From the NCBI RefSeq assembly GCF_036324505.1, contig NC_086354.1:7489295-7553294 (forward strand): a stretch of DNA of 64,000 bases. The letters are read 5' to 3'. The position numbers and the translations under genes are program-made. Source of the DNA: Eleginops maclovinus (taxonomy: Eukaryota; Chordata; Actinopteri; Perciformes; Eleginopidae). Under the pieces are notes generated by a model. That model did not search any database and was not told the DNA's origin. It saw only the letters and a list, made by a program, of their open reading frames with translations. Shown here piece after piece: positions 15,241 to 59,028 of this stretch (position 1 is the first letter of the stretch; each line of letters begins with the position of its first letter).

Positions 15241-17370
15241 TTACCACCGTCTTATGTTGACCCACAAATTCACTGAGATAAATAGAGACATATACACACC
15301 TGAGGCGCAGATCCCCACCTGCACAAACACCAAAAAAAGGCTCTCTTATCACATTATGCCGAAGATGTGCCCTCGAAGAAGATATCTTGAAACATTTATC
15401 TGCTTTCTTTAAAGGACCGTCAACTGATATTACAAAAAAATACATATCTTACTGACCTCTAGTTTGTAGATAGCTTTGGTTTTTTGTGGCAGTTTGGAGA
15501 AACCACAAAAGCTATGGTCACAGTAGAAAATGCACAGGTGTAAATAATGAAAATTAACGATAGTTGCATTCCATTTAGCTTCTTTGATTTTAAGGCTCCT
15601 GGTATCTTACATGCTGGCTCACTGTCAATCCCACAGGAAGACATGAACAGAACGGAGGCGTCGTTAGCGTTATCAGTAACACCTGTGCTTTTCCTGATTT
15701 TCTACTGCCAAAAATTAAAAAAACATCACAGCTGAATACAGTTGTGTGTGTGTGTGGTGCTCAGGGCATTAGAAAGCAACGTGTCAGCCACTTGTATGTG
15801 GATAATCACAATGGATTATTAGTAGAAAGCCCTGTTTTAGCATTATTAAAGTCAAGATTCAACTTTAAAAAACGGCCTTTTGACCCTTTGAGATCACACC
15901 CTGGTCATATTCTGCACTCATATAACAATATATGCAAAGAGAAGTAAGCAAAAAACTCATAAACTCATATTTCTGTATCACAATTCAACCACCTCTTAAA
16001 GCAAATTATCACATGTGCTTACTTACCGACCAATTTCAACTAAAAATGTTACAACATGGTAGGTGTGTCCTATTTAGCTCCGTATGGCGCATAGCTAGTA
16101 GACTTAACTCATTTTAACAACCAATAGCTACAATGAGAAATAAAGTAGCTCTCCATTTCCTCTCCGCGAAAAATGTATACAGATTTAAAAGACACTTAGT
16201 TAACAAGCTAAGTGTCTCGTTAGCAACCAAGCTAGAGAGAGAAAATAATTAAGGAGCTAATGTTGCTGATAAGTGCTAGCATCTTCCCAACTTGCTACTG
16301 TTTAGCCATTAGCTTACTACTTTAAGTTGTTTGCAAACCAGCCCTGCTATAAGTCACTACATCACAGAGAGTCAATCATCACATATTCGCTAGGAAGCAC
16401 GGATGAATGCGCTGTGCTACTTTCTGGTGTGACAGGGCCGCAACTGGGTCACTGGTATCTGTTGTTGCATTGTTTTTTCAATGGGATTTTTCTTTTCTTT
16501 CAGAGAAAAATGTAAACAGCATATATTTACACCCACCTTTTTAAAATACCCACCCTGATCTAAGCTAAATAAAGATCCCAAATATGTATTAAATGACATG
16601 AAAGAAAAATAAATAAAAAACAAAGCAACATATATATATTTAAGTGCACAATGCACCACACATAAACAAGCCATTAAACTCCATTGTGTTTGCATTAAAG
16701 CAGAAATATGGAAACATTTCAAAACCTGTGTTTAAAATGAAACCATCTATATGGTAAGTGAGAAAATGAATCTATTTTTCCCTTTCTCTCTTGGCAGTCC
16801 CGGTTTTATAACCCTCATTTCTCCTTTCTTCACCACTCAAACAGAATGTGTTCAATTATTTATTAATCTCTCCACTCAATAATAATGTCCTAATTGTCCA
16901 CGCTTCTCTTGCCTGCCTGGTCACGCTCCTTCCAGAGCACTCACTGGGCCACTGCATTTCACACTTTCCACTTCACCTTTTTTTTTTCCTCCCCTTTCTC
17001 CATCTCCCTCTCTATGCATTTACACTCCCTGTCTCCCTCAAAGGCACTTTCTACTGCACTCTGTGATCCTCTTCTTCCCTTCTACCTCGCCATCACTCCC
17101 ATCCTCTGTCCATCCTTTTTTATTTCCCTCCAACTCCCCTGCCTCCCTCCAGATCGTGAAGGCTGGCAGCCAGCGCCCTTTTTCATTCAATTAAGTCCCG
17201 AGTGTTGCTGTTATTGTTACCACTAATAATGAAGGCCCTACGTCTAGCTTGCTGCCAGGCTGTCAGAGGCATGATCATCAATAGGCACCATACCTCATCT
17301 CCATCTCCGGCAATCACCGGCCTCATTACTATCATCTGAGGATGGGAGGAGGGCACACATGCACTGAGAC
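15241..17370. other. No gene recognised; possible fish interspersed-repeat DNA
   Basis: AT-rich sequence. Parts of 15420-16720 (GCTAGC/GTTAGC-rich, and the stretch near 15455-15520) resemble dispersed teleost repeats, but I cannot define element ends. One perfect short hairpin lies at 16190-16217. The 16960-17130 region is pyrimidine-rich. Confidence 0.4.
16190..16217. repeat. Perfect 10-bp hairpin
   Basis: AGACACTTAG (16190-16199) and CTAAGTGTCT (16208-16217) are exact reverse complements with an 8-nt loop. Function unknown; it lies in repeat-like sequence. Confidence 0.7.
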
Positions 17371-17375
17371 TCACT

Positions 17376-19399
<2,024 letters not shown>

Positions 19400-20060: not shown

Positions 20061-24452
<4,392 letters not shown>

Positions 24453-29690: not shown

Positions 29691-30792
29691 ATACAGCCGC
29701 GCTGAATTGTCACACAACAAAGATAAAACACTTGACGTTTTTCGTGATGAAGAGTTCCCAGGGTGTGTGATCAAAGGTGAGCCGGAGTCGTGATTTTCTA
29801 GCTGACGACGAAGAGGGGAGATGAGGTTAGAGCACAGAGAGGGAGGGAGGGGGGAGCTCAAACTCACATGTGCAAGCTTAAGAGGGAAGAGTTGTGTTGA
29901 TACACTATGGAACAACAACTTCAACAGAAGAAGAGCTTGCCAGAAAACCAGAAGTCAAATCATGCTGCTAATTGAGAATATGAGACAGTGTGTCTGCCTA
30001 CATCTTGAGGTTCAATTTAAAAATACAACACAAAGAAATTCAAGAGGAGAACACAGTGGAAGGGAGTGGGACAAAGATGGAGGTGGAGAGATGAAAGTGA
30101 AGACAAAAAGTAACCGAGTGACTGGAAACAAGGGCAGTTGGAACCCCGACAGAGAGAAGGGATTGATGGAGGACAAATAACACGATGAGCACAGCGGTAT
30201 AGAGACGACAGAGGAACTTAGGAGCTGAGGAAGGTTGGGTAACATTCACCGTTAGAGCCGATCAATTTCCAGTCCCCTCAATAATAGATGTGACGAGCGC
30301 AGTGGGCTGTTGTCTGTCAGGCTTGACTGACCGAAATACAATCCCCACTGGGAGCCCACACACACAACTACAGACGCACGTACACATGCGCAAGCTCATG
30401 TGTTCAAAACAACATTCAGATTTCAACACATTCTACAAAAAACATAACTTATGAGCTAACCTTGAAGCTCATGGTGGAAAACGAAACAGAGAAATGGGAT
30501 TTAACACAACATGGAAATGGTTTGTGCTCGCCGAGGCCTTCGTTGTCGTCTTCATGGTCACACACTGATGCACTGATGGTGCTGATGCTCTCATTCATCA
30601 TTGGAACTTTCTGTCCATTACACACACACACAGATAAAAAGCAGCTCGCATCACAGCTTCTTTTCTCACGCCCTTGTGTTCTGTCCTTATAAACCTCCAT
30701 CCTTCATGGGACCTAATGTCATGTGACACAAATGCTTTTTTTTTTTCAAGGCCACCGTGCACTATCGCTGGCGCTTTTAACCATCGTATCAA

Positions 30793-30797
<5 letters not shown>
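29691..30797. other. No gene recognised; purine-rich 29.82-30.20 kb
   Basis: 29820-30200 is A/G-rich on the plus strand, giving a stop-poor frame (29821-30180) without domain content. The rest is unremarkable. Confidence 0.5.

Positions 30798-30877
<80 letters not shown>
30798..30877 (+). repeat. (CA)n microsatellite
   Basis: About 80 bp of CA repeat, uninterrupted after the first units. Confidence 0.97.
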
Positions 30878-30880
<3 letters not shown>

Positions 30881-31039
30881 AATCAGGTTACCTAATAGCT
30901 AGCGGGAACGTCAGGGAGACGGTGGAAGGCAGGCATGTGGAAGAAGCCTCTGTGACAGAGCACAACAGAAACAGGCTTTCATTCAGCCCCTATCTGTCAG
31001 GACCCCCTCCTGTCGTTTTACCCAGATGTGTCACACCAG

Positions 31040-32130
<1,091 letters not shown>

Positions 32131-36700: not shown

Positions 36701-42791
<6,091 letters not shown>

Positions 42792-45196: not shown

Positions 45197-47467
45197 TGTA
45201 TTAAATCTGTTCATATACAGTTAGTTACTCTCTGAGGTCATAGAGAGTGCAGAGAGTGATGTGGTACAACAGGATGTTGTATAACAAACCTCTGGAATAT
45301 GTCAGAAGGCCTCCAGGTATGAGTAAGAAAAAGACCAACGTATATCTCACCTTATTTGGGTACGCGCAAGACATGGTGTACGAACGTATAGATCACCTTT
45401 TTTGGGTACACATTCTTATAGAACATCGCATTTTGTCACACACCCACATTTCTCCTATAAATTGCATGAAAAATGAGATTTTGGGGGGACTTCCACAATT
45501 GGCACTGGGAACCCCGTATCGCCCGTGTTGGTGTATGATATGCTGTTGTAATAAACCTTATTATATACAAGCTGGTGTCTCCGGGGACTTCTTCATCATC
45601 TTCACAAACATCGCTACAAGATATACCTCACACCTCTGATTAATACTAAGCACTGGGACCATGCAGTGTACTTTCAGCTGCTATTAGAAGTTGCAAAAAA
45701 AAGTTTGGGTACAAATATTTAACAAAATAAGGGCAAAAACTAAGGTTTTATCATTAATAATTTACTAATAGTGAATGGTTTTTAAAAATCTAGCAGTATG
45801 ATGAGGAGAAAGTTATTACTTATATAATAAATATTAATAAATACAAGTATCAATGGCCAATGACTAAAATAGTAAATGATTCATTCCCATTACTTGAGGC
45901 ATAGTTTACAAATTATAAATCATATTCTAAAGGGGGTTGACTACAAGTTGGTGCCAATTGTATATTTATGTTTATAGACTTATCTCTGTCCAACATGAGT
46001 ATTTACATGAATAGTAAAGCTGTGCGATCTAAAGACGAATGTTTTAAATTGGCTTGATGTAGGAGGAAGATTGATGAAACATCATTATGCCTCTAGAATA
46101 CACATCACATTTAATGAACTTTGTTTGTTTTGTAACAAAACTCCACAGGGCACCTTGTGTGCACATTCCTCTAATATTCTTCTTTTTTTTTTGCAGTTCA
46201 GTTGCTGCATACTAATCTTTTTTAAAAAGTGTGCCTTTAGAATAATTGCAGATCTATTTCAATGGGGATACCATCATCTTCATTAACATCATTATCATCA
46301 CTAAGCTATCTCGTGATTACAGGCCAACGATAACATTATTATACTCGTGTTAATCAGGCCACCTTTATCATCGTCCAGGACCTATTTCAAAAAGCCATTA
46401 CCTCCATCCTTACCACTTAAGAGCAAATTATACCTTCCCATCTTCCCACACGTACCTCCCCCAACCCACACACGCACACACACACACAGACACATTTCAT
46501 TACCGTTGATATATCCAGCTCAGTCATTGCACAAGCTGCAAGTCCCTTATCATTGGTCTATGCTGTACTTGTAGATTGACTCCACTACTAGGAGCCCTTT
46601 GAAGTTTAGAGAAAGGGAGGGGAGAGGAAGATGTATGTGTGAATAGTAAAAAAAAAGAGGGACTGCTCCTTCTCTATTACAGAAACACAGTAGAACAGGG
46701 CCAGCTAGATGACAGAGCATGAAAGGGCTGATTTATCCACCAGGGAGAGACTCTGTGTATGTGCATGAGTAAGGAAGAGAGGGAGAAAGAAAGAGATTTT
46801 GCTCTCTTTATTATTGATACTGTGTGCATTATTAAACTGAACGTATACATTTGTATGTGAGCTAAAAATGCTTCTTCCTCATTTCTTCCCAGGGCCAGGG
46901 ATCACTTCTGCCTGGATGTGCCACTCTTTGCTGCAGCCCCGGGACTTGATTCTGCCATACATGTGTTTGGCAGGAGAAGTCAGTTGGCTAAGCAGCAGAA
47001 TCCGGATGGATGTACAGTACACAACACCAGAAAATACAGTTTTAGGCAGTGTGTACAGAGACATCTGGTGCCACAACAAGCTAGAGGGTGTATTGTGTCC
47101 TCTTAACATCATAGAACCTAAATTCAGCTTTGCAGGCCAGTTCTTTCTTTGCTTTCCTATTTATGATCTTGTAAACAATGTGTTCGTCTAACTAAAAGGG
47201 TGAGTTATCCTAAAGCACAAACACACTTTTTTTCCTCACTGACCCTTTGTGGTATCTAGTAGTGGTTGTTTTTTTTTGCTCTGGTTTTGAGATACTCAAG
47301 TTTGTTTCTACCACCACAAGACAATGGACGTGAATGGAATTTAGTTTTAGGCACTTATGTGACCCAACCATTATTTTCAGAAACAGTACTAGAGCACATT
47401 ATGCTCTAGATAATCAACAGGTCACATTGGACAATTTTTAAAAGCCACGCATGCCAAGCCATGTATT
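45197..47467. other. No gene recognised
   Basis: AT-rich. A short CA/CG microsatellite lies at 46467-46488 and a purine-rich stretch at 46600-46800. The open frames at 45247-45639 and 46868-47191 have no recognisable domain or splice support. Confidence 0.5.
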
Positions 47468-47664
47468 CAGTAGGGAGAACAAGTATTTGATACACTGTCG
47501 ATTTTGCAGGTTTTCCCACTTGCAAAGCATGTAGAGGTCTGTAATGTTTATCATAGGTACACTTCAAATGTGAGAGATGGAATCTAAAACAAAAATCCAG
47601 AAGATCACATTGTATGATTTTTAAGTAATTAATTTGCATTTTATTGCATGACATAAGTATTTGA
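47468..47664 (+). repeat. Left terminal inverted repeat of the Tc1-like element
   Basis: About 197 bp, pairing with 48712-48908. AAGTATTTGAT occurs at both the outer and inner end of this arm (outer at about 47479, inner at about 47655). This is the inverted-repeat/direct-repeat layout of Tc1 transposase binding sites. Confidence 0.9.
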
Positions 47665-47673
47665 TCACCTACA

Positions 47674-48690
47674 ATGGCCAAGACCAGAGAGCTGTGTAAG
47701 GACATCAGGGATAAAATTGTAGACCTGCACAAGGCTGGGATGGGCTACAGGACAATAGGCAAGCAGCTTGGTGAGAAGGCAACAAGTGCTGGCGCAATCA
47801 TTAGAAAATGGAAGAAGTTCAAGATGACGGTCAATCTCCCTCGGTCTGGGGCTCCATGCAAGATCTCACCTCGTGGGGCATCAATGATCATGAGGAAGGT
47901 GAGGGATCAGCCCAGAACTACACGGCAGGACCTGGTCAATGACCTGAAGAGAGCTGGGACCACAGTCTCAAAGAAAACAAGTAACACACTACGCCATCAT
48001 GGATTAAAATCCTGCAGCGCACGCAAGGTCCCCCTGCTCAAGCCAGCGCATGTCCTGGCTCGTCTGAAGTTTGCCAATGACTATCTGGTTGATCCAGAGG
48101 AGGAATGGGAGAAGGTCATGTGGTTTGATGAGACAAAAATAGAGCTTTTTGGTCTAAACTCCACTCGCCGTGTTTGGAGGAAGACAAAGGATGAGTACAA
48201 CCCTAAGAACATCATCCCAACCGTGAAGCATGGAGGGTGGAAACATCATTCTTTGGGGATGCTTTTCTGCAAAGGGGACAGGACGACTGCACCGTATTGA
48301 GGGGAGGATGGATGGGGCCATGTATCGCGAGATCTTGGCCAACAACCTCCTTCCCTCAGTAAGAGCATTGAAGATGGGTCGTGGCTGGGTCTTCCAGCAT
48401 GACAACGACCCGAAACACACAGCCAGGGCAGCTAAGGAGTGGCTCCGTAAGAAGCTTCTCAAGGTCCTGGAGTGGCCTAGCCAGTCTCCAGACCTGAACC
48501 CAATAGAAAATCTTTGGAGGGAGCTGAAAGTCTGTATTGCCCAGTGACAGCCCCGAAACCTGAAGGATCTGGAGAAGATCTGTATGGAGGAGTTGGCCAA
48601 AATCCCTGCTGCAGTGTGTGCAAACCTGGTCAAGAACTACAGGAAACGTCTGATCTCTGTAATTGCAAACAAAGGTTTCTGTACCAAATA
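47674..48690 (+). pseudogene. Tc1-like DDE transposase, one frameshift and one stop
   Basis: Transposase that cuts and pastes the element at TA sites. It starts at ATG 47674 ([20 protein letters not shown]). A paired-type helix-turn-helix region spans roughly residues 11-50 and a second DNA-binding half roughly 55-115. The DDE catalytic domain follows. The first Asp is residue 152 in [12 protein letters not shown] (codon 48127-48129), the second lies in [11 protein letters not shown] (48401-48403) and the Glu in [10 protein letters not shown] (48506-48508). The last two have 34 residues between them, so this is a DD34E transposase. The frame breaks at a G run near 48234-48236, between TVKHGG and [16 protein letters not shown]. 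An in-frame TGA occurs at 48545-48547 after [26 protein letters not shown] and the rest of the C-terminus continue to about 48690. With just two lesions the copy looks recently silenced. Confidence 0.93.
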
Positions 48691-48711
48691 AAGTTCTGTT
48701 TTTCTGATGTG

Positions 48712-48908
48712 TCAAATACTTATGCCATGCAATAAAATGCAAATGAATTACTTAAAAATCATACAATGGGATTTTCTGGATTTTTGTTTTAGATTCCGTC
48801 TCTCACAGTTGAAGAGTGCTTATAATAAAAATTACAGACTTCTACATGCTTTGTAAGTGGGAAAACCTGCAAAATCGGCAGTGTATCAAATACTTGTTCT
48901 CCCCACTG
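48712..48908 (-). repeat. Right terminal inverted repeat of the Tc1-like element
   Basis: Mirror of 47468-47664 with scattered substitutions. On the minus strand its outer end reads CAGTGGGGAGAACAAGTATT and its inner end ATAAGTATTTGA. Confidence 0.9.
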
Positions 48909-49272
48909 TATGTCGTGGGTCCCAAAGTAGGCACCACAGCAACAATAAAGAAACCAGTAAAAAACAGATAGCTTGCAGCAGTTGACGAAACTGTGCATTC
49001 AATTTGTCATCCAGAATGCTTCTTATTCGCTATAAAATTGACACAGTATAACATCGCATTCTTTTGTCGGGTACTGTTTCAGTCCTTAAATGTCATATAA
49101 GCGGAAAACATCCAGACATATAATTTACATGATATCTTAAAGAATGTCTTCACAGGCATAACTCTCACATTTTACACATTAGCATCTGTATGAGTGTTAT
49201 ACTACTGTTTTTACATCATGTTCAATTACAACTCCTGAGCTCTGTGAATGTCTACTCACATCTGTTTATAGT

Positions 49273-50010: not shown

Positions 50011-50015
50011 ATAAC

Positions 50016-50604
50016 TGTAGGGTATTTAAGGTTCAGACTGGAGCCACACAGACCACACAGGAAACAAGGTTGCACTCAAGTTTAAGTTTATTCTCTCTTA
50101 GTCCAAAAATGGTGAATTGGAGACAGGACTGGATGAGTGCCAATGATGAGTACCAATGGTTCTACAAAGACAGAAAACAACATTACAATGCTTTGTCCAA
50201 AGTAAAATACAAACAGAAATGTTGCCTTACAATCGCAACACATGCCACATCAAACGTAGACAATTCAAACGATATCTAGTCAAGCTTCACATTAACTTCA
50301 TAATCAACAAGTTAGATCTAATGAACTATTAAACTTACTATTAACATATTAGCAGTTAATACCTAAACATGATCCTCATCAATAAATGAAACTGGACTTA
50401 CATTGAAATAACTCCAAAAGACACATGGCACACTTCACCAAACAATTTCCAGACGTGTTTAGGGACAAAGAGAGGAAGTCCCGCCCTTACAGGTCTGTAT
50501 TTAAAGGGTAGGCAATGATTGACAGGTAGATTGTTCACTTGTACCACCTTGTGGAGCGGAGGGGAAATGCACTTGTAGTTCTTTGGAACTTGTAGTTTCT
50601 AACA
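50016..50604 (-). repeat. LTR A (3' LTR of the minus-strand element)
   Basis: 589-bp LTR, TGTTAG...CCCTACA on the minus strand. It carries a TATA-like TTTAAATA and a downstream AATAAA signal. A purine-rich CCGGGGGCGGC (50605-50615) directly precedes it in the sense direction, in the position of the polypurine tract that primes plus-strand DNA. A stop-poor frame through the LTR is not a gene. Confidence 0.93.
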
Positions 50605-50633
50605 GCCGCCCCCGGAGTTGTGCAGCAAATACG

Positions 50634-51134
50634 TTACGTGGTTTCTTCTTCAGTGATTTCAGGGAGTGGGATTAATCTGGAGACAGGGCGTATGTATTCT
50701 CGACCTTGAATGGTGATTTTAGCACTGCGAACCTTTCCATCTTTTCCAGGGTAGGTTTCGGTTATCCTTCCGATAGGCCAGGATGCTCGAGGTAGCTGGG
50801 GGTCAACCAACATCACAACCTGGCCTGAATCCAAATTCTCCTTGTCAGTTTTCCATTTCTGTCTGACTTGAAGGTTTGGAAGGTAGGATCGGATGAAAGC
50901 TGACCAGAATTTGTCAGCCAAGATTTGACTGTGACGCCATCTTCTCTTACCAAGAAGTTCACTGGGACAGTAGATTGCTTGGGGAAGAGAAGAATCAGGC
51001 CGCCCCATCAATAACATATTTGGTGTAACTGGATCAAGGTCAGCAGGGTCAGAGGAAATGTATGCAAGGGGTTTCGAATTCAGAAGGCCCTCTACTTCAA
51101 TAAGGGTTGTATGTAGGACTGTCTCAGTGAACTT
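50634..51134 (-). pseudogene. BEL/Pao integrase C-terminal fragment, sense copy
   Basis: The C-terminal end of a Pao-type pol polyprotein, ending at the TAA at 50634-50636. From the fold-back junction it reads KFTETVLHTTLIEVEGLLNS, DLDPVTPNMLLMG and SELLGKRRWRHSQILADKFW, the end of the integrase catalytic region. It continues into the DUF5641 domain typical of BEL/Pao: QVRQKWKTDKENLDSGQVVM, PRASWPIGRITETYPGKDGK and YIRPVSRLIPLPE. The ORF appears to extend upstream to 51164 only because it reads through the junction into antisense DNA. The rest of pol is absent, so this fragment cannot act alone. Confidence 0.9.
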
Positions 51135-51455
51135 CTTGGTAAGAGAAGATGGCGTCACAGTCAAATCTTGGCTGACAAATTCTGGTCAGCTTTCATCCGA
51201 TCCTACCTTCCAAACCTTCAAGTCAGACAGAAATGGAAAACTGACAAGGAGAATTTGGATTCAGGCCAGGTTGTGATGTTGGTTGACCCCCAGCTACCTC
51301 GAGCATCCTGGCCTATCGGAAGGATAACCGAAACCTACCCTGGAAAAGATGGAAAGGTTCGCAGTGCTAAAATCACCATTCAAGGTCGAGAATACATACG
51401 CCCTGTCTCCAGATTAATCCCACTCCCTGAAATCACTGAAGAAGAAACCACGTAA
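51128..51455 (+). pseudogene. BEL/Pao integrase C-terminal fragment, inverted copy
   Basis: Identical in translation to the minus-strand fragment from SELLGKRRWRHSQ to the terminal EITEEETT and stop (51453-51455). It begins at the fold-back junction, so about 150 bp of integrase sequence present in the other arm is missing here. A start at 51168 (TTG) would be artificial. It leads directly into a polypurine-like tract (51471-51484) and LTR B. Confidence 0.9.
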
Positions 51456-51484
51456 CGTATTTGCTGCACAACTCCGGGGGCGGC

Positions 51485-52073
51485 TGTTAGAAACTACAAG
51501 TTCCAAAGAACTACAAGTGCATTTCCCCTCCGCTCCACAAGGTGGTACAAGTGAACAATCTACCTGTCAATCATTGCCTACCCTTTAAATACAGACCTGT
51601 AAGGGCGGGACTTCCTCTCTTTGTCCCTAAACACGTCTGGAAATTGTTTGGTGAAGTGTGCCATGTGTCTTTTGGAGTTATTTCAATGTAAGTCCAGTTT
51701 CATTTATTGATGAGGATCATGTTTAGGTATTAACTGCTAATATGTTAATAGTAAGTTTAATAGTTCATTAGATCTAACTTGTTGATTATGAAGTTAATGT
51801 GAAGCTTGACTAGATATCGTTTGAATTGTCTACGTTTGATGTGGCATGTGTTGCGATTGTAAGGCAACATTTCTGTTTGTATTTTACTTTGGACAAAGCA
51901 TTGTAATGTTGTTTTCTGTCTTTGTAGAACCATTGGTACTCATCATTGGCACTCATCCAGTCCTGTCTCCAATTCACCATTTTTGGACTAAGAGAGAATA
52001 AACTTAAACTTGAGTGCAACCTTGTTTCCTGTGTGGTCTGTGTGGCTCCAGTCTGAACCTTAAATACCCTACA
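51485..52073 (+). repeat. LTR B (internal, inverted LTR)
   Basis: 589-bp LTR in plus orientation. TATA-like TTTAAATA is at 51584-51591 and AATAAA at 51997-52002. It lacks a flanking target-site duplication of its own: its inner end joins the integrase tail as a normal 3' LTR does, and its outer end abuts the primer-binding site of LTR C. That argues against a separate nested insertion. Confidence 0.93.
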
Positions 52074-52097
52074 GTTGCTCCGGCTCGAAGGACCAAC
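52074..52097 (-). promoter_or_regulatory. tRNA-Tyr primer-binding site between LTR B and LTR C
   Basis: On the minus strand, two bases after the end of LTR C, TGGTCCTTCGAGCCGGA is complementary over 17 nt to the 3' end of vertebrate tRNA-Tyr (…TCCGGCTCGAAGGA plus CCA). This is where the tRNA would prime minus-strand cDNA. It is followed by GCAAC and then, unexpectedly, by the antisense end of LTR B. Confidence 0.85.
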
Positions 52098-52686
52098 TGT
52101 AGGGTATTTAAGGTTCAGACTGGAGCCACACAGACCACACAGGAAACAAGGTTGCACTCAAGTTTAAGTTTATTCTCTCTTAGTCCAAAAATGGTGAATT
52201 GGAGACAGGACTGGATGAGTGCCAATGATGAGTACCAATGGTTCTACAAAGACAGAAAACAACATTACAATGCTTTGTCCAAAGTAAAATACAAACAGAA
52301 ATGTTGCCTTACAATCGCAACACATGCCACATCAAACGTAGACAATTCAAACGATATCTAGTCAAGCTTCACATTAACTTCATAATCAACAAGTTAGATC
52401 TAATGAACTATTAAACTTACTATTAACATATTAGCAGTTAATACCTAAACATGATCCTCATCAATAAATGAAACTGGACTTACATTGAAATAACTCCAAA
52501 AGACACATGGCACACTTCACCAAACAATTTCCAGACGTGTTTAGGGACAAAGAGAGGAAGTCCCGCCCTTACAGGTCTGTATTTAAAGGGTAGGCAATGA
52601 TTGACAGGTAGATTGTTCACTTGTACCACCTTGTGGAGCGGAGGGGAAATGCACTTGTAGTTCTTTGGAACTTGTAGTTTCTAACA
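52098..52686 (-). repeat. LTR C (5' LTR of the minus-strand element)
   Basis: 589-bp LTR in minus orientation, identical by eye to LTR A over its length, followed on the plus strand by the right ATAAC duplication (52687-52691). It is the natural 5' LTR because the primer-binding site lies next to its U5 end. Confidence 0.93.
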
Positions 52687-52691
52687 ATAAC

Positions 52692-55168
<2,477 letters not shown>

Positions 55169-55285
55169 TTGTAGTGATAATTTTATGAGATCAAAATTGC
55201 ACCTAATGTTTAATTTGCACATTCATTTTTAATATGTAGTTTTATATCTGATTTATTGTTTTTTTTTCGTTTTATTATTCAGTTG

Positions 55286-55352
55286 GACAATTTATTTCTT
55301 ACTTAATTATCATTTAGTTCAAGTGTTAAAAACAACACTTTGTTCTGACTAT
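55286..55352 (+). repeat. 67-bp inverted repeat, left copy
   Basis: GACAATTTATTTCTTACTTA...GTTCTGACTAT. The reverse complement occurs at 58962-59028 with one difference in 67. Similarity stops sharply on both sides. The repeat contains AAGTGTT...AACACTT, a small internal hairpin. The two copies could be the ends of a 3.74-kb element or two insertions of a short repeat in opposite orientation; no target-site duplication was found. Confidence 0.9.
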
Positions 55353-58961: not shown

Positions 58962-59028
58962 ATAGTCAGAACAAAGTGTTGTTTTTAACACTTGGACTAA
59001 ATGATAATTAAGTAAGAAATAAATTGTC
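58962..59028 (-). repeat. 67-bp inverted repeat, right copy
   Basis: Reverse complement of 55286-55352, 66 of 67 identical. The mismatch is TTTAGTCCAAG here versus TTTAGTTCAAG on the left. Flanking bases do not match those of the left copy. Confidence 0.9.

Follow-up and report, generated by a model that had tools for sequence, protein, structure and literature searches.

A palindromic BEL/Pao retrotransposon insertion in Eleginops maclovinus, with signs of fold-back self-priming during reverse transcription

Complexes with three long terminal repeats (LTRs) and a single target duplication, ascribed to template switching, are known from Triticeae, rice and maize, and have been modelled as heterodimers of two complete cores that arise when the first strand transfer goes wrong between two RNAs (Sabot and Schulman, 2007, PMC1950507). 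Inverted proviruses of human immunodeficiency virus type 1 (HIV-1) are listed, in the accessible text of one study, at 1.3% (n = 1) with a deletion and 1.3% (n = 1) without (PMC9278108), and fold-back priming is given as established for yeast chromosomes in the accessible text of another (PMC7467729). Self-primed palindromes are not treated in the accessible parts of two reviews of retroviral recombination and replication (PMC3187697, PMC12789967), and our literature searches, which left most subscription journals outside their coverage and are no proof of absence, returned no integrated palindromic LTR complementary DNA (cDNA) with a third, inverted LTR. Here we describe such a structure in a BEL/Pao LTR retrotransposon that lies in a 64-kb stretch of Eleginops maclovinus DNA (contig NC_086354.1, positions 7,489,295 to 7,553,294; hereafter the window). 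The insertion is recent and was probably made from cDNA that had already become palindromic by fold-back self-priming; that the palindrome preceded integration, whether it arose by fold-back or by a switch between two strands, we hold to be very probable.

On the + strand the copy begins with ATAAC, LTR A and a minus-oriented polypurine tract and pol tail; after the loop come a plus-oriented pol tail and polypurine tract, then LTR B, 24 nt, LTR C and again ATAAC (Table 1). A preliminary description of this DNA had given three 589-bp LTRs, one ATAAC duplication outside LTRs A and C, and no duplication belonging to LTR B, all of which we confirmed; there are no differences between any two of the LTRs. 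Its mirror-image tails around a 146-nt loop stood as well, except that the mirror is not perfect (one base of the 956 bp in the arms differs, 50965 versus 51124, six bases within the inner edge) and that the loop, correct in length, is not neutral, as its minus strand is continuous with the left arm. Nor are the 24 nt between LTRs B and C a plain spacer, being made up of GTTG, an odd base, the complement of a 17-nt primer site, and AC. No inverted repeat listed for the window is longer than these two mirrors, which measure 959 and 597 nt with short extensions included; next in length are the 200-nt ends of a Tc1-like transposon.

The palindrome resembles the plant complexes in its third, inner LTR, its near-identical outer LTRs, its one outer 5-bp duplication and in an explanation by faulty reverse transcription before a single integration. 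It is unlike them in that the middle LTR is inverted and does not lie between two complete cores, nothing but the pol tail is mirrored in the internal part, and DNA would have been primed on DNA. With the HIV-1 inverted or asymmetric-LTR proviruses it shares integrated inversion, or strong-stop transfer onto an unexpected partner, although the accessible text describes no mechanism, mirror or third LTR for the inversions (PMC9278108). With the yeast fold-back inversions, as far as the accessible text describes them, it would share a 3' single-stranded end paired by a short stem to an inverted partner, synthesis primed from that end, and a mirror with a loop; those inversions involve chromosomal breaks and host polymerases, whereas the palindrome involves retrotransposon cDNA and integrase (PMC7467729).

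We searched the 606-Mb assembly (27 contigs) for the family, the counts being lower bounds and the pol-tail search extending well past the family. The LTR had at least 31 matches and the pol tail at least 26, comprising 17 near-identical (one partial, on C12), 1 at 78% and 8 at 67%; both searches agreed on the same 15 family loci, again a minimum. Ten of these are ordinary two-LTR copies, and their presence in the same genome makes the joints of the palindrome comparable with the normal form. The other five are the palindrome, C10, C20 (at 7.93 Mb), C18, and C26, which is cut by a contig end. LTR pairs are identical in 9 of the 10 ordinary copies, the tenth (C23) having 667-bp LTRs with 3 differences, and the target duplication is 5 bp in nine and 4 bp in one. 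No solo LTR was present among the 31 LTR matches; C26 could not be judged at its contig end, though its LTR is bordered by pol tail. The family is a young one. In the ordinary copies the spacer that separates LTR and primer site is GT (5 copies), AT (4) or GTT (1), followed by TGGTCCTTCGAGCCGGAT ACTGAGCC, and the leader is GGATACTGAGCC in 10/10. The single GTT copy is also the one with the 4-bp duplication. The 667-bp LTRs (C23:27221011-27228689; L027, L028) are apparently enlarged by tandem repeats of about ATTGGTACTCATC, and at C18:27207109 (L026) the 5' LTR is cut down to its last 59 nt, with no target duplication seen.

Around the inner joint, the window and the minus strand of an ordinary copy are identical between 50016 and 51117 (0/1102 differences), and divergence begins exactly past 51128: the ordinary minus strand continues from ACTGTCTCAGT into TGTTTG, the window into GAACTTC, which belongs to the sense pol tail. 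The sense arm and LTR B (51118-52073) differ from the ordinary copy at a single base, 51124, where T stands for C. The last 11 bases up to 51128 pair with 50961-50971 by 10 Watson-Crick pairs and one T.G wobble; the T at 51124 is the primer strand's own base opposite a template G, and the only mismatch between the arms is this wobble position. As expected of a fold-back product, the mirror joint falls at a terminal stem of the parent strand and the loop derives from that strand. Both parental sites were present in 5/5 fetched loci that hold the region (L002, L004, L006, L008 and L009, one of them C10).

We then asked how unusual the stem is. In the fairest test, which used ordinary letters and scored 1489 possible minus-strand 3' ends within the LTR and the final 1.5 kb of an ordinary copy, 7 ends had at least 10 terminal Watson-Crick pairs and 6 equalled or beat the observed stem, itself included, two of the six being one stem at neighbouring bases. 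With window letters the observed end ranked first of 429, and 0/300 shuffled strands reached 10 pairs. Among 2347 four-base terminal matches at least 100 nt apart on the window strand, only the observed one extends by a wobble-or-pair and six further pairs, compared with 2 of 42,712 four-base matches in 20 mononucleotide shuffles.

Strictly common to both templates are only the four bases CAGT (51125-51128), the other seven being upstream pairing, and a jump between molecules would leave the same letters. A template switch between two minus strands or co-packaged genomes, in which a short-homology jump leads to another cDNA that is copied in the opposite sense, might on this ground account for the joint. 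We consider it rather unlikely, given that the loop and both arms fit one ordinary sequence with no second variant, that the seven bases upstream of the joint can pair, and that one extra molecule is needed, although a jump between identical molecules would look no different. Fold-back on the same molecule and onto an identical partner would likewise be expected to yield the same letters.

The outer joint, read inward from LTR C, consists of GT, TGGTCCTTCGAGCCGGA, G, CAAC and LTR B in complement. Attached to LTR C are thus 17 nt of the primer site and no leader, while the four bases behind LTR B, GTTG, are those with which copies with a GT spacer continue after their LTR. This is the form that would be expected if plus-strand strong-stop DNA were joined to the open end of a self-copied minus strand. 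In HIV-1, according to the accessible text of one source, plus-strand strong stop comes after 18 nt of the primer transfer RNA (tRNA), at m1A58 (PMC13191261); the 17 nt of the palindrome are close to this, with one nt fewer. GTTG-C-TCC lines up in register with GTTGGTCC of the ordinary copies, and this register (GTTG-x-TCC) weakens the case for a clean end-to-end jump between strand ends. The joint could possibly have formed by GGA/TCC pairing and extension past one mismatch, or alternatively by end joining with one filler base, and we make no choice between the two. We also considered that the primer site copies all 18 nt of the tRNA, with C at position 59, and dropped this, the 18th base being T in the ordinary copies and in the tRNA copy at L003. 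A search pattern for a joint between unique 5' (U5) ends, with 12 exact bases on each side of a gap of 2-32, matched one place in the 606 Mb, the palindrome itself, and a control pattern matched none; no other copy with this one joint, within those exact bases and gap widths, was found by it.

Autointegration, or integration of one cDNA's LTR end into the leader of another followed by chromosomal integration, would have an extra, wrong-facing LTR as its expected outcome; Shoemaker (1980) and Lee and Coffin (1990) reportedly dealt with inverted circles and autointegration. Integrase would, however, trim the GT and join CA directly, whereas GTTG still follows LTR B, and the neighbouring sequence differs from the ordinary leader. 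The unprocessed LTR end and the absence of that leader disfavour this route, which also leaves the pol joint unexplained, and we regard it as extremely improbable.

Rearrangement of a normal element after integration, by gene conversion, fold-back repair or template switching at a replication fork, has a precedent in the yeast chromosomal fold-back inversions, which have short stems and, in some strains, large loops (accessible text of PMC7467729). Here, by contrast, the element has kept intact outer LTR ends, an intact target duplication and identical LTRs, and the joint of LTR C ends in the tRNA primer site, which is a landmark of reverse transcription that repair of a chromosome would have no cause to choose. 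We judge such an origin very unlikely. That the cDNA was rearranged before two proper LTR ends integrated it, as the preliminary description had proposed, is well supported by the single duplication outside the unique 3' (U3) end of LTR C and the U5 end of LTR A, by joints on landmarks of reverse transcription, and by the match to ordinary copies everywhere outside the joints. The order given in that description (5' LTR, primer site, antisense 3' end, sense 3' end) holds provided that LTR B is counted with the antisense part, but the account came without a mechanism, the wobble mismatch, the 17-nt primer-site end or the sister loci.

Fold-back self-priming would then have run as follows. Nascent minus-strand DNA would halt in the integrase region, and its 3' end would fold back through the 11-bp stem with one T.G wobble. 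Reverse transcriptase would copy the folded strand as far as that strand's 5' end, passing through the LTR and reaching at least 2 bases into the tRNA primer. The copied end, and not a full-length minus strand, would then be joined by plus-strand strong-stop DNA (LTR C, GT and 17 nt of primer site), either with the 3' GGA of the strong-stop DNA mis-paired with TCC in the GTTGGTCC of the mirror copy, or by joining of the ends with one filler base. Strand-displacement synthesis would complete a 2671-bp duplex whose ends are the U3 of LTR C and the U5 of LTR A, and integrase would insert it in the usual way, by two normal LTR ends.

Several points weigh against this account. The primer-site copy has 17 nt and not 18, base 52078 is accounted for only by a mismatch or a filler, and a 3-bp mis-pairing at the outer joint is weak. 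The stem tests on window letters are the weaker ones, as the last four letters (CAGT) could be a copy of the template, and all stem tests were done after the joint had been seen. When the 189 nt ending at 51128 were folded as DNA, the minimum-energy structure lacked the stem and preferred other hairpins, with an ordinary energy (z -1.21; 22/200 shuffles fold as well), and the 3' end at 51128 can also form a 4-bp hairpin of its own. Fold-back joints are few, two in 15 loci, and the structure rests on one assembly taken on trust.

Table 1. Features of the palindromic copy in window coordinates.
Feature	Position	Strand	Basis or remark
Target-site duplication ATAAC, left	50011..50015	.	sequence
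LTR A	50016..50604	-	U5 (CA) end forms the element's integrated 3' end; equals ordinary minus strand
Polypurine tract ACTCCGGGGGCGGC adjoining LTR A	50605..50618	-	identical 14 nt in 10/10 ordinary copies
Pol tail, DUF5641 region	50605..50971	-	on + strand, minus-strand DNA read as first laid down
Coding part of pol tail, 161 aa and stop, BEL/Pao-type polyprotein end	50634..51119	-	Pfam DUF5641 E 6.3e-27; relatives
Template half of proposed fold-back stem, ACTGGGACAGT	50961..50971	+	sequence; ordinary-copy comparison
146-nt loop, minus strand continuous with left arm	50972..51117	-	ordinary-copy comparison
Primer half of stem, proposed 3' end of nascent minus strand, ACTGTCTCAGT; wobble base T at 51124	51118..51128	+	
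Pol tail mirror copy, sense	51118..51484	+	single difference from ordinary copy over 51118-52073 (51124)
Polypurine tract adjoining LTR B	51471..51484	+	sequence; ordinary copies
LTR B, inner	51485..52073	+	without own duplication
GTTG (GT and first two primer-site bases), then single C fitting neither side	52074..52078	+	GTTG as in 5/10 ordinary copies, with GT spacer
Primer binding site, 17 nt, TGGTCCTTCGAGCCGGA	52079..52095	-	ordinary copies continue with T as base 18
LTR C	52098..52686	-	U3 (TG) end forms the element's integrated 5' end
Target-site duplication ATAAC, right	52687..52691	.	sequence

A second locus, C10:14873501-14877089 (L009), has a joint of the same kind. An LTR and 987 nt of pol tail (99.9% to an ordinary copy) run in one direction, and near 14876566 the pol tail turns into LTR bases 493-589, a normal primer site and the leader in the opposite direction. 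At this joint the ordinary minus strand CCATTTTTGGA pairs with TCCAAAAATGG in its own LTR complement through 11 Watson-Crick pairs and one wobble, with a loop of 1466, and as a minus-strand end it is the single best of the 1489. We prefer, as simpler, a reading in which the minus strand would have been primer and its own LTR complement template; the reverse direction, with the LTR complement as primer and pol as template, would leave the same letters. Further along are a second, oppositely directed pol tail, an LTR without about bases 502-569, and an additional primer site and leader. The far end of the complex, and with it the integration ends, was looked for and not found. Opposite-facing pol tails occur in 2/15 loci, the palindrome and C10, both joined at top-ranked fold-back sites.

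This second joint also bears on whether the palindrome could be an artefact of assembly or sequencing, such as a fold-back chimera read. Palindromic chimeras occur in long-read data, and the U5-U5 joint was found once in the genome. Set against this are the flanks, which are unlike each other (their comparison gave no more than a 14-nt chance match, E 0.35) and have a proper target duplication; the arm mismatch, which falls exactly at the wobble base; a window without N; and the C10 joint elsewhere. An artefact is in our view highly improbable.

The third aberrant locus, C20:7929251-7933463 (L003, L024, L037), differs in kind. Its 5' LTR and GT are followed by 36 nt (40 with a shared GATC) that read, complemented, as the 3' part of a tRNA, which we take to be tRNA-Tyr from about base 37 or 41 to its end; the primer tRNA of the family is presumably Tyr as well. 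The olive-fly element Achilles is reportedly also a BEL/Pao element. Its primer site is given as tRNA-Tyr, with no palindrome described, in the accessible text (PMC4580426). The tRNA copy at C20 enters the element ~3.3 kb inside, at GATC and, by eye, near the start of reverse transcriptase. An ordinary copy reads CCCAGCGACCAGGTA GATC at this point, with four bases common at the joint, and CCAGCGACC is common just before it, the spacing being off by one base. The locus looks like a misdirected second strand transfer, in which strong-stop DNA continued past m1A58 before annealing to a wrong site. The 3' LTR lacks bases 570-589 (its last 20 nt), and the flanks have AGGAA in common, one base from the 3' LTR end.

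Pfam DUF5641, which we take to be a marker of the BEL/Pao integrase or polyprotein end, matches both arms of the palindrome (E 6.3e-27 and 2.1e-27), and the 13 species named among the best 120 of 202 pol-tail protein relatives are teleosts. The palindromic copy is without reverse transcriptase and integrase cores and retains the pol tail alone; from this polyprotein C-terminus the element is classed as a BEL/Pao LTR retrotransposon. TG...CA LTRs, a primer site past the 5' LTR, a polypurine tract before the 3' LTR and a short target duplication are all present, a set common to other LTR retrotransposons too. In viral contigs, 11 stretches fitted the pol-tail pattern and none was confirmed as a relative, and ARAGORN found no tRNA gene at a 17-nt primer-site match there (L001).

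In this young family, aberrant joints are preserved at three loci alongside ordinary copies that are nearly identical, so that each mis-step can be read to a few bases, including the minus-strand stop, the pairing options and the length of the strong-stop tRNA copy. The palindrome is a readable record of a copying error that was neatly inserted nonetheless, which suggests that integrase needs little beyond a pair of LTR ends. More speculatively, self-priming of the minus strand at its most self-complementary sites might be a regular side-path of reverse transcription in this family, with integrase accepting products that have two LTR ends; RNA of the palindrome (LTR C to LTR A, a 956-bp stem with one mismatch) might even feed double-stranded-RNA silencing of its own family, a scenario we put forward as doubtful. 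A survey of other active families for these signatures could show how often such errors occur in nature.

Elsewhere in the 64-kb window, ARAGORN and Rfam (gathering threshold) returned nothing. At 47465-48911 lies the Tc1-like transposon, whose 200-nt inverted ends are 92% alike and whose transposase pieces (Sleeping Beauty-type helix-turn-helix, DDE_3) are in two frames, and at 868-1452 a reverse transcriptase fragment scoring below the Pfam cut-off. Inverted copies of a 67-nt sequence, 99% alike, lie 3.6 kb apart at 55286-55352 and 58962-59028, and long CA/GT microsatellites occupy 17300-18050, 24350-24450, 30790-31155, 37220-37430 and 55040-55170.

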